From positions 1-44,141 of the IMG/VR virus record IMGVR_UViG_3300036852_000049: a stretch of 44,141 nt of DNA. One strand, given 5' to 3'. The DNA is from a virus. Shown piece by piece: positions 14,982 to 26,348 of this stretch. Position numbers and translations under genes: made by a program. Every line of letters begins with the position of its first letter. Position 1 is the first letter of the stretch. The notes under the pieces were generated by a model. The model saw nothing but the letters and a program-made list of their open reading frames with translations. It did not search any database and was not told the origin of the DNA.

Positions 14982-15752
14982 ATGAACGCGAAGACCGAAG
15001 CCGCGACGATCAGACACCAGATCGTCCATCGCTGGACCAGCGCGGTGCTGTTCGAATGCGATGTGCCGGCTGATCTCGCAAGTGGCCTGCGCATGCGACA
15101 TGCGCTTGAGGCGGCAACGAAGGCACGCGCGGACCTCAGTGGCGCGTACCTCAGTGGCGCGTACCTCAGTGGCGCGTACCTCCGTGGCGCGGACCTCAGT
15201 GGCGCGGACCTCCGTGGCGCGGACCTCCGTGGCGCGGACCTCAGTGGCGCGGACCTCAGTGGCGCGGACCTCCGTGGCGCGTACCTCCGTGACGCGTACC
15301 TCCGTGGCGCGGACCTCAGTGACGCGTACCTCAGTGACGCGTACCTCCGTGGCGCGGACCTCAGTGGCGCGGCTACGCCAGAGCAGTCCATCGAAAACCT
15401 CGACAAGGTGCGCGCCATCGTCCTCGACAACCGCGACCGGCTGGAAATGGGCCACTGGCACGTAGATGACAGCTGGAAAGAGCGCACCTGCGCGGAGGAG
15501 ACGCTGTGCGAGACGACGCACTGCCTCGCCGGCTGGCTGCAAATCTGCTCGACGGACCAGAAGGTGCGCCAGATGGACGCGCAGATGGCCGGCATCGTGG
15601 CCGCGCCCATCGCCGCGAAGATGTTCTTCCGCTCCGGCGACGAAGTTCTGTCGTGGCTGGAAGAGCGCAAGTATGTGGCCGAGATTGCCGAGCGTGAGCG
15701 GCGCGCTGCGGAGCGTGCGGCGAAGAAGGCGGCAGAAGGAGCGGCCCCATGA
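14982..15752 (+). CDS. Pentapeptide-repeat protein with C-terminal Cys/His domain
   Basis: 256 aa with a strong Shine-Dalgarno. Residues 50-129 are 16 uninterrupted pentapeptides of the A(D/Y)L(S/R)(G/D) type, predicted to fold as a right-handed quadrilateral beta-helix. Residues ~140-235 form a second domain with [23 protein letters not shown] and [15 protein letters not shown], a domain found in other phage and bacterial proteins without known function. An Ala/Arg/Glu helix ends the protein. It is the first gene of the rightward early operon. Pentapeptide proteins such as MfpA and Qnr mimic DNA and bind gyrase; a host-takeover role is possible but not shown. Confidence 0.85.
15129..15368 (+). 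repeat. 15-bp tandem repeat, 16 units (pentapeptide array)
   Basis: Sixteen in-frame 15-bp units of the form GCG(G/T)ACCTC(A/C)GTG(G/A)C. Only three positions vary, each between two bases, giving Asp/Tyr, Ser/Arg and Gly/Asp. All other bases, including synonymous positions, are identical, so the array was homogenised or expanded recently. The period is a multiple of three, so the opposite strand stays open too. Confidence 0.93.
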
Positions 15753-23546: not shown

Positions 23547-23655
23547 AAGCGTTCCGCATCTGGGGTCGGATCAGAGGTAGGCAAAGAGCAAGTCAACGCG
23601 GAACGCGGCGAGCCCTAAGTAATTGATGCGATGGCACAATCTGCCGAAGTTCATA

Positions 23656-23711
23656 CAGACTCAAAATCTGCCGGTGGCAACACCGTGCCGGTTCGATTCC
23701 GGCCTCCGGCA
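23656..23711 (+). other. attP: 3' part of tRNA-Leu (CAA anticodon)
   Basis: This stretch is the anticodon arm through discriminator base of a bacterial tRNA-Leu: loop CTCAAAA (anticodon CAA), a long variable arm CGGTGGCAACACCG, T arm GCCGGTTCGATTCCGGC and acceptor strand CTCCGGCA. Upstream, the D arm and 5' acceptor are absent or diverged, and the 3' end reads TCA rather than CCA, so it cannot be a working tRNA by itself. A tRNA 3' fragment beside an integrase is the standard attP design: integration would rebuild the host tRNA gene. Exact crossover limits cannot be set without the host. Confidence 0.83.
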
Positions 23712-23820
23712 TCAACATCCATGCGGCTTGCAGCGCGGCCGGCACTGGATGCAAAAACACAACGTTCCGCAGGCGTTCCGCATTTCCAGAGTCGTGCGTT
23801 CCGCATTCGAGTGCGATGAC

Positions 23821-24459: not shown

Positions 24460-24535
24460 CTGGGTGTATTGTCAGCCCGGTTAGACGGCCGCGCTTGGAA
24501 CGCGGAGGCCGCTGGTTCGAATCCAGCCACCCAGA
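24460..24535 (+). tRNA. tRNA-Pro (anticodon UGG)
   Basis: A full cloverleaf fits: acceptor CTGGGTG/CACCCAG; D stem TTGT/ACGG with two G-U pairs; anticodon stem CCGCG/CGCGG around CTTGGAA (anticodon TGG); T arm GCTGG TTCGAAT CCAGC; discriminator A followed by an encoded CCA (24536-24538). It is 76 nt, a normal length. It reads CCA and, with wobble modification, other proline codons. This is the best-formed tRNA in the island. Confidence 0.88.
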
Positions 24536-24573
24536 CCACCCGACTCGCACGAACGCGAGCCTGAGCCCTCTCA

Positions 24574-24775: not shown

Positions 24776-24849
24776 GCCCTGCTGGCGGAATTGGCATACG
24801 CGCCGGTCTTAGAAACCGGATTCTCCGAGTTCGAGTCTCGGGTGGGGCA
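24776..24849 (+). tRNA. tRNA-Leu-type (anticodon UAG) with short variable loop
   Basis: Acceptor GCCCTGC/GTGGGGC; a leucine-type D arm (GGCGGAATTGGCATACGC); anticodon stem CCGGT/ACCGG around CTTAGAA (anticodon TAG); T arm CCGAG TTCGAGT CTCGG; discriminator A and an encoded CCA (24850-24852). Unlike bacterial tRNA-Leu it has only five variable-loop bases instead of a long arm. Short-armed leucine-like tRNAs are seen in phages. It ends two bases before the stop of the convergent lysis-end gene. Confidence 0.82.
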
Positions 24850-24853
24850 CCAT

Positions 24854-25081
24854 CTAGCGCTTGGTATGGGCATGCGGAGCGCTCGCCGGTGTCCAAGTAT
24901 CAACTGAGACCCGATCGCCTGCTGTAGGCCCTGGATTCGCGATGGCGGACGGTTTCGAACAGGATGCCTCGCCCACCGACTGGCCCATCAGCGCCGCGCC
25001 GACCGCGAGCAGGCCGGCGACGGTCCAGAAGGCGAAGTACAGCACGACGCACCCGGGGTTGCTTCTGAGCCATCGGATCAT
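24854..25081 (-). CDS. Single-pass membrane protein at end of lysis cassette
   Basis: 75 aa from ATG 25081 (ATGA overlap with the HNH gene). An N-terminal positive stretch (MIRWLRSNPG) leads into one transmembrane helix (residues ~11-33), then a ~40-residue Ser/Pro/Ala-rich tail, presumably periplasmic. Its position suggests a lysis accessory, but it lacks the coiled coil of an i-spanin. The stop lies directly next to the convergent tRNA-Leu. Confidence 0.65.
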   Translation of the reverse strand: MIRWLRSNPGCVVLYFAFWTVAGLLAVGAALMGQSVGEASCSKPSAIANPGPTAGDRVSVDTWTPASAPHAHTKR

Positions 25082-25356
25082 GTGTGGCACCGCCTGAGCC
25101 GCGCGCACAGTCGGCGCTCCTCAGCGTCCTTGACGAGCGACGCACGATATTCCTGCCAAGCCATGTTCTGCGGCGCGTCGCGCCCACCTGCACACAGAGG
25201 CAGTTGATGGTCGACCACCCATCCCGGGCAGGCTCCGGTCGTCTTCCCGGTTGCCGGGCACGGATGCGTATGCCGGAAGGCCCTCACCTGGGCCGGGTCG
25301 CGCGCTTGAGCGCTGATGGCCACAGCGAGCAGCAGGAGCGCAGCGGTCAGTTTCAT
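25078..25356 (-). CDS. Secreted HNH-motif protein in the lysis cassette
   Basis: 92 aa from ATG 25356 (ATGA overlap). Residues 1-18 are a signal peptide (MKLTAALLLLAVAISAQA) with a likely cleavage after AQA. The mature part has CPATGKTTGACPGWVVDHQL, then PLCAGGRDAPQNMAWQ: the 'VDHxxPLxxGGxDxxxN' core of an HNH nuclease flanked by cysteines that could form disulfides or bind zinc. It is translationally coupled to the lipoprotein before it and the membrane protein after it. Expected location: periplasm. Activity is inferred from the motif; relatives are widespread in Burkholderiales phages. Confidence 0.82.
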   Translation of the reverse strand: MKLTAALLLLAVAISAQARDPAQVRAFRHTHPCPATGKTTGACPGWVVDHQLPLCAGGRDAPQNMAWQEYRASLVKDAEERRLCARLRRCHT

Positions 25357-25496
25357 GGTGCGGAGGCAGCCGACGCAGGCGCCTTCAGGTCGAATGTACA
25401 AGCCGAGGTACACACCACGAGGCCGAACGGGCGAAAGCTGAAGGAACTGCAGCCGGCGAGCAGCGACAGGGCGACAAGCGCGAGGAGGCGTTTCAT
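25353..25496 (-). CDS. Small lysis-cassette lipoprotein (o-spanin candidate)
   Basis: 47 aa from ATG 25496 (ATGA overlap). The signal peptide MKRLLALVALSLLAGC ends in a lipobox (LAGC), giving a mature ~32-residue lipoprotein. Unlike Rz1 it is not proline-rich; it contains FRPFGLVVCTSACTFDLKAP with two more cysteines. Small outer-membrane lipoproteins are part of the spanin complex, and its place after lysozyme fits, but no clear i-spanin partner is present, so the role is open. Confidence 0.75.
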   Translation of the reverse strand: MKRLLALVALSLLAGCSSFSFRPFGLVVCTSACTFDLKAPASAASAP

Positions 25497-25732
25497 GGCG
25501 GGTCCTTCATTGGCTGGGTGTCGGGGAACTCGGACGGGTGGAGCTGCTTGATGACGCGCACGACGATGCCCGCGACCGAGAGGCCGGCGGTGATCCAGTG
25601 CACGAGATTGGGCGGCAACTGTGCGACGAGTTCGGGGGGCAACTCGGCCCAAACGCCCTGCACGATGGCGATGGTGGCCAGCACCTGCACCACATAGAAC
25701 CGCGGCGCCTGGCGCCAGTTGTCGATGATCAT
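25493..25732 (-). CDS. Small membrane protein of the lysis cassette (holin-like)
   Basis: 79 aa from ATG 25732, overlapping the lysozyme stop as ATGA (an ATG at 25738 is an alternative). Two hydrophobic segments, FYVVQVLATIAIVQGVWAEL and the region LVHWITAGLSVAGIVVRVI, are separated by a short PPELVAQLPP loop. This is the plan of the small holin-like proteins that follow lysozyme in podophages of beta-proteobacteria. Either this or the 61-aa protein at 26163 is the true holin; the other may be an antiholin. Confidence 0.75.
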   Translation of the reverse strand: MIIDNWRQAPRFYVVQVLATIAIVQGVWAELPPELVAQLPPNLVHWITAGLSVAGIVVRVIKQLHPSEFPDTQPMKDPP

Positions 25733-26166
25733 TGCCATTCGCCGGTCTCCAGCTGCCGTGACATCTTGCGGGCACGAGTCGGTGTCTGCTGCGCCCACGT
25801 CGACAACAGCATCAAATGGGCCGCGTGGGCGTAGTGCTCATCCCGGATGGCCGCGAGCGTTTGCTGAAAGCCGAGCAAGCCGCCAACGCCCATCTGGAAG
25901 GCCATGTTGAGCAGCGCGCCCTGTCGCGCCTCGTTCATGGAAGGGACCCACGGCAGCGCCTTGGAGACATCGTGTAGCTTGGCATCGATGTCGTTGCCGA
26001 GCAGGTAGACCGCCTCCTGCTCGTTGATGCCGCCGTTCCTGCGGTCATCGATCAGTCGTCCGTATCCGATGGTCCAGAAACCGAGACTGTCTTGATAGGC
26101 GTGGAGCACCAAGCCTTCGTCCGCCTTCAACTGGCGGGCCAAATTTGGTTTCAAGCCTTCCATCAT
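25729..26166 (-). CDS. Endolysin, T4-type lysozyme (GH24)
   Basis: 145 aa from ATG 26166, which overlaps the holin stop; a longer frame to 26286 only reads through the holin gene. The GH24 catalytic triad is intact: Glu17 (ADEGLVLHAY), Asp26 (QDSLG) and Thr32 (FWTIGYG), with the classic E-x8-D-x5-T spacing. No signal peptide or SAR domain, so release requires a holin. It cleaves the MurNAc-GlcNAc bond of peptidoglycan. Confidence 0.93.
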   Translation of the reverse strand: MMEGLKPNLARQLKADEGLVLHAYQDSLGFWTIGYGRLIDDRRNGGINEQEAVYLLGNDIDAKLHDVSKALPWVPSMNEARQGALLNMAFQMGVGGLLGFQQTLAAIRDEHYAHAAHLMLLSTWAQQTPTRARKMSRQLETGEWQ

Positions 26167-26348
26167 CGCCTGACCTTGTCGCGAATCAGGAAATAGGTAT
26201 TGACGACGGTGTAGATCAACACCGCTGCCGTAGAGCAGATCCCAAGTACCTGCTGAAACTGGGTCAGGGTTAGAGACCCAATCCAAGCCGTGAAAAGTAT
26301 CCAGTGCTCCCTGAGCCAGGTCGAGATTGCTTCGCCGACGCGGTCCAT
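26163..26348 (-). CDS. Probable holin
   Basis: 61 aa, MDRVGEAISTWLREHWILFT onward. Two hydrophobic stretches (WILFTAWIGSLTLTQFQQVL and CSTAAVLIYTVVNTYFLIRD) end in a basic C-terminus (KVRR), as in small class II holins. It is first in the lysis cassette and overlaps the lysozyme start by four bases. It would form the membrane lesion that lets the lysozyme reach the wall. Confidence 0.78.
   Translation of the reverse strand: MDRVGEAISTWLREHWILFTAWIGSLTLTQFQQVLGICSTAAVLIYTVVNTYFLIRDKVRR

Follow-up and report, generated by a model that had tools for sequence, protein, structure and literature searches.

The HNH superfamily (PF01844), which includes Cas8f-HNH, McrA, the Gme HNH nickase and the colicin E7 and E9 DNases, is characterised by a beta-beta-alpha-metal fold, and members with a variant third ligand exist. 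Gram-negative bacteria also possess EndA/Vvn-type endonucleases, periplasmic, disulfide-containing enzymes of beta-beta-alpha-metal type. In phages, the lambda-type lysis cassette consists of holin, endolysin and Rz/Rz1, and the morons of late operons include lambda bor. Finally, the SNIPE system is an effective defence that cuts phage DNA where it enters the cell; SNIPE is a membrane-anchored GIY-YIG nuclease with a DUF4041 domain whose nuclease lies in the cytoplasm (PMC13190303).

It is instructive to compare these systems with a small protein encoded in the lysis operon of the phage studied here. Firstly, the protein shares with the HNH superfamily the predicted beta-beta-alpha-metal fold and the D-H ... 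N ... K spacing, and some of its relatives match PF01844. Unlike those proteins, it is predicted to be exported, it is a stand-alone mature domain of 74 aa with extra paired cysteines, and it has S73 in place of the third ligand H73, with D77 one helical turn on. Secondly, like the EndA/Vvn type it is predicted to be periplasmic, disulfide-containing and of beta-beta-alpha-metal type, whereas the EndA/Vvn enzymes are much larger, belong to another sequence family with another motif and are not genes of phage operons. Thirdly, its gene lies downstream of holin and endolysin and no promoter of its own was found, as with the lambda-type cassette and lambda bor, but the operon adds a putative exported nuclease and has no recognisable Rz/Rz1 pair. 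The likeness to SNIPE, i.e. the use of the DNA injection site to separate self from non-self, would apply if the protein serves superinfection exclusion, and is an analogy only because SNIPE is a GIY-YIG protein with a cytoplasmic nuclease, as opposed to an exported HNH protein. In the T4 exclusion literature, a review consulted for a similar periplasmic nuclease does not contain the word 'nuclease' (PMC6832632), and the literature searched yielded no account of an HNH protein secreted by a phage, an absence that is no proof.

The window, i.e. the whole stretch of 44,141 nucleotides that was analysed, spans the entire virus record. The gene is the fifth of six in a minus-strand chain, which is listed here in order of transcription:

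26163..26348, minus strand: single-TM protein, 61 aa, holin-like, with a weak PF16080 match
25729..26166, minus strand: T4-type lysozyme endolysin, 145 aa (PF00959, E 4e-13)
25493..25732, minus strand: DUF7940 / phrog_1356 holin, 79 aa (profile match, E 1e-18)
25353..25496, minus strand: lipoprotein, 47 aa, lipobox LLAGC, ATGA overlap with the HNH gene
25078..25356, minus strand: putative exported HNH-fold protein, 92 codons and 92 aa, ATG (25356) to TGA (25078); signal peptide 1-18, mature domain 19-92; active-site candidates D49, H50, N64, K76 and D77; cysteines C33/C43 and C55/C84
24854..25081, minus strand: single-TM protein, 75 aa, overlapping the 3' end of the HNH gene

All five junctions are consecutive 4-base ATGA overlaps, including the two with the lipobox lipoprotein (25353-25356) and the single-TM protein (25078-25081) that had been pointed out in the original prediction. 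Hundreds of independent contigs share the reading frame of the HNH gene with about 50-70% identity, which argues against a chance ORF. A promoter and terminator scan of the lysis operon was empty. No Rz/Rz1 spanin pair is recognisable between 24854 and 25496; the 47-aa lipoprotein might conceivably be an outer-membrane spanin-like protein. In two relatives from the endolysin and terminase comparison below (L273 and L277) a textbook lysozyme is followed by Rz with a nested Rz1, and in this slot the studied phage carries the lipoprotein, the HNH protein and the TM protein. For the last of these, the 75-aa TM protein, no relatives were found in viral contigs, and the sole DNA match of its region is 75 bases at 77% in MT838041. 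It could be a partner or an inhibitor of the HNH protein.

The N-terminus, MKLTAALLLLAVAISAQA followed by RD, is a textbook signal peptide, as had been proposed, with cleavage after AQA-18. Its layout is the three-part n-h-c arrangement of a Sec signal with an A-x-A site (MK, then LTAALLLLAVAI, then SAQA before RD). Scored by one simple hydrophobicity rule, a heuristic rather than SignalP, 146 of 156 distinct relatives begin with a signal-like hydrophobic stretch, compared with 143 of 1036 long control ORFs (13.8%). The leader sequences differ among the relatives although the signal-like character is kept, and about 8 relatives appear to bear a lipobox instead. This heuristic thus supports the prediction that the product is Sec-exported.

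The flanking cysteines of the original prediction are there, in that C33, C43, C55 and C84 flank or interrupt the HNH core. Of the 156 relatives, 122 have both C55 (or 56) and C84, 30 have neither and only 4 have one without the other, counts that, like the residue counts below, ignore kinship among the sequences. Because the two cysteines are gained or lost jointly they behave like a disulfide, and C55 and C84 probably form one. A second disulfide may link C33 with C43, both of which are nearly invariant. In a group of genome loci (L115, L120, L126, L129, L146 and similar) the signal peptide is separated from the HNH domain by a long linker of low complexity; these proteins are without the C55/C84 pair and end directly after the KD..E motif.

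The HNH core itself, which had been described as intact, is so in part only. The first His preceded by an acidic residue (D49-H50) and the middle Asn at +14 (N64) are in place, but the third canonical position at +23, where a strict HNH motif has a His or Asn ligand, is Ser73. The remaining residues are strongly conserved among the 156 relatives (D49 in 153, H50 in 155, N64 in 154, K76 in 152). H73 is found in 16 relatives and D77 in 136, never together, and position 73 of the D77 sequences is nearly always Ala, Ser or Gly. Residue 68 splits likewise, as Gln accompanies D77 in 131 sequences and never accompanies H73. In the long helix, residue 77 follows residue 73 by one turn; from this spacing and the mutual exclusivity we infer that D77 replaces H73 as metal ligand, so that the core would read H-N-D rather than H-N-H. 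Loss of H73 could also mean altered or lost catalysis. The 16 H73 relatives (L044, L056, L060, L067, L072, L076, L078, L089, L092, L104, L107, L113, L122, L132, L137 and L142), most of which have K76-T77 instead of D77, are a natural comparison set for the question of the metal site.

Taken alone, the window protein had no match in Pfam, PHROG, NCBIfam, PADLOC or PDB-sequence searches, therefore relatives and a family profile were needed. Pfam HNH (PF01844) was matched by 20 of 76 relatives, though not by the window protein itself, and PHROG HNH family 333 by 54 of 76, while the family profile finds the HNH domain of Cas8f with E 5e-4. A structure was modelled with AlphaFold (AF2) from an alignment of the window protein and the loci (75 sequences; the row from an annotated phage record was left out). 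The model has a pLDDT of 95.2 and the order strand, strand, long helix, i.e. beta-beta-alpha. In Foldseek and VIA-align 2 comparisons the best match was again Cas8f-HNH (Z 6.7; 61-62 residues superposed with an rmsd of 1.4-1.7 A), followed by McrA, Gme HNH and colicin-type DNases. A Z of 6.7 is middling, as expected for 74 residues, and the sequence evidence agrees with it. Relatives and modelled fold together support the assignment of the mature domain to the HNH (beta-beta-alpha metal) fold. Judged by its sequence the protein is an HNH-fold variant and not a strict HNH-motif protein; it is a variant within a known kind and not a new kind of system. Since the models of Pfam, PHROG, NCBIfam and PADLOC do not at present recognise it, automatic annotation misses it.

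At least 109 viral contigs and 264 genome contigs carry relatives, in varied contexts; chromosomal and prophage copies are counted together in the latter. The genome records include Burkholderiales, Gallionellaceae, Methylococcales, Acidobacteria and Nitrospirae, and a relative named 'hnhc' lies near head genes in one annotated phage record. In a tree of 153 sequences the viral and genomic members mix, with 25 label changes as opposed to 51 with shuffled labels; with only 67 columns the tree is no more than indicative, and what it indicates is far from one transfer. The family is large, unstudied and common to phages and bacteria.

How closely is the gene tied to lysis? A set of 50 viral records carrying a family gene was searched for four endolysin families, a choice that misses some endolysins, and 22 records had a match. 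In 7 of these 22 the endolysin lies within 2 kb of the HNH gene, where random placement would give 4.0 (P=0.07). The relatives L021 and L013 are directly adjacent to an endolysin, and L016 and L017 are also beside one. No family member was present in 80 loci around relatives of the window endolysin (up to 77% identity), in 20 loci around relatives of the window terminase, or in 14 related-terminase records searched whole, many of which are fragments. A role as core component of the lysis cassette and a family-wide link to lysis are not supported, as the gene is not kept with endolysin and holin in these related phages and does not cluster significantly. Because it is absent from related cassettes and records, we regard the gene as an accessory one, placed in and tightly coupled to the lysis operon. 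What stands of the periplasmic nuclease first proposed is an HNH-fold product with a predicted export signal, as argued for by the signal, the fold, the intermediate HNH homologs and the overlaps. A lysis-specific role is not supported, given the closest phages and related cassettes without the gene, the lack of significant clustering with endolysins and the many relatives on bacterial contigs, nor is the suggested action on cell-wall debris.

We consider it probable that the product is a small Sec-exported, metal-dependent HNH-type endonuclease, encoded by an accessory gene ('moron') of the late lysis operon. Once the protein is exported, its signal peptide would be removed, disulfides (probably C55-C84 and C33-C43) would form in the periplasm, and the enzyme would become active there. 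D49 and D77 would hold the metal ion instead of the usual Asp/His pair, H50 would act as general base and N64 would orient H50. Export and disulfide-dependent folding would spare the host DNA and the replicating phage DNA without an immunity protein. As late-expressed cargo of the operon, the nuclease would cut unprotected DNA, either in the periplasm ahead of lysis (the incoming genome of another phage) or afterwards in the lysate (the host chromosome), while packaged progeny genomes would stay protected. The two targets appear about equally likely, the late expression slightly favouring clean-up and the wide carriage outside lysis operons favouring a more general use. An active protein would mean that the phage products exported to the periplasm around lysis include a nuclease, and compartment would be a simple way of telling self from foreign DNA. 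The H73-versus-D77 layout and the jointly varying cysteine pair offer clean mutational tests.

The likelihoods given to the two functions are shares of this preferred explanation rather than additions to it. Superinfection exclusion, in which the nuclease would cut the genomes of other phages as they cross the periplasm of the phage-producing cell, is possible but tentative. Export and a nuclease fold agree with it, SNIPE shows that a membrane-localised nuclease can be effective against phage DNA at injection (PMC13190303), and the gene is carried by many unrelated phages, in some of them beside HTH-regulator genes, so that a lysogen might express it. The late operon, however, leaves little time before lysis, the protein has no phage-targeting domain, many relatives are in bacterial genome contigs, and PADLOC gave only 7 matches among the relatives, all to generic type IV restriction HNH models; apart from these restriction enzymes it matched no defence system. 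Lysate clean-up, i.e. digestion of released host DNA with less viscosity or virion trapping while packaged genomes are protected, is likewise a tentative proposal. The tightly overlapping position in a late lysis operon offers a suitable timing and location, and the four relatives beside endolysins point the same way, but the enrichment near endolysins is not significant and related cassettes without the gene show that lysis works without this nuclease.

It is improbable that the protein is catalytically dead, or a non-nuclease periplasmic protein that retains only the HNH scaffold. The Ser in place of the third canonical ligand would suit this explanation, as would the position of the window protein below all profile thresholds; a dead scaffold, however, would not retain D49, H50, N64, K76 and D77 nearly invariant in more than 130 relatives at about 50% identity. 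Highly improbable, finally, is an HK97 gp74-type packaging cofactor or homing HNH endonuclease whose N-terminus is hydrophobic by chance. Many HNH proteins of phages do have such roles and a few relatives adjoin terminase genes (L021), but both roles were rejected on the family-wide export signal and on the distance of about 18 kb between gene and terminase in the window; no intron or split gene is seen and the cysteine pairing suits the periplasm.

Returning to the preferred explanation of an exported endonuclease, we may speculate that the family forms a class, widespread and unnamed, of HNH nucleases that are exported, stabilised by disulfides and built with a shifted, Asp-for-His metal site. 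As periplasmic 'border guards' of phages they would cut incoming rival genomes, and compartment and redox state alone would spare the producer. We hold this wider reading to be doubtful.

Some features of the phage genome deserve mention. DNA searches of phage records found no near relative of the window. Its ends carry a 127-bp direct repeat, which is consistent with a complete genome, and gene order suggests that the lysis cassette sits at the end of the late region. The lysis operon is followed by two tRNA genes and a gene of integrase-like type, so that the phage is probably temperate. The tRNA genes, tRNA-Pro(tgg) at 24460-24538 and tRNA-Leu(tag) at 24776-24852, are on the plus strand just past the operon. 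A tRNA-like 3' half (GGTTCGATTCCGGCCTCCGGCA) that received no tRNA call lies at 23620-23720, adjoining the integrase-like gene, and is possibly the core of an attachment site. Elsewhere in the window, positions 14982-15752 encode a pentapeptide-repeat-like protein made up of A-x-L-x-G units, and the repeat structure of the DNA matches that of the protein.
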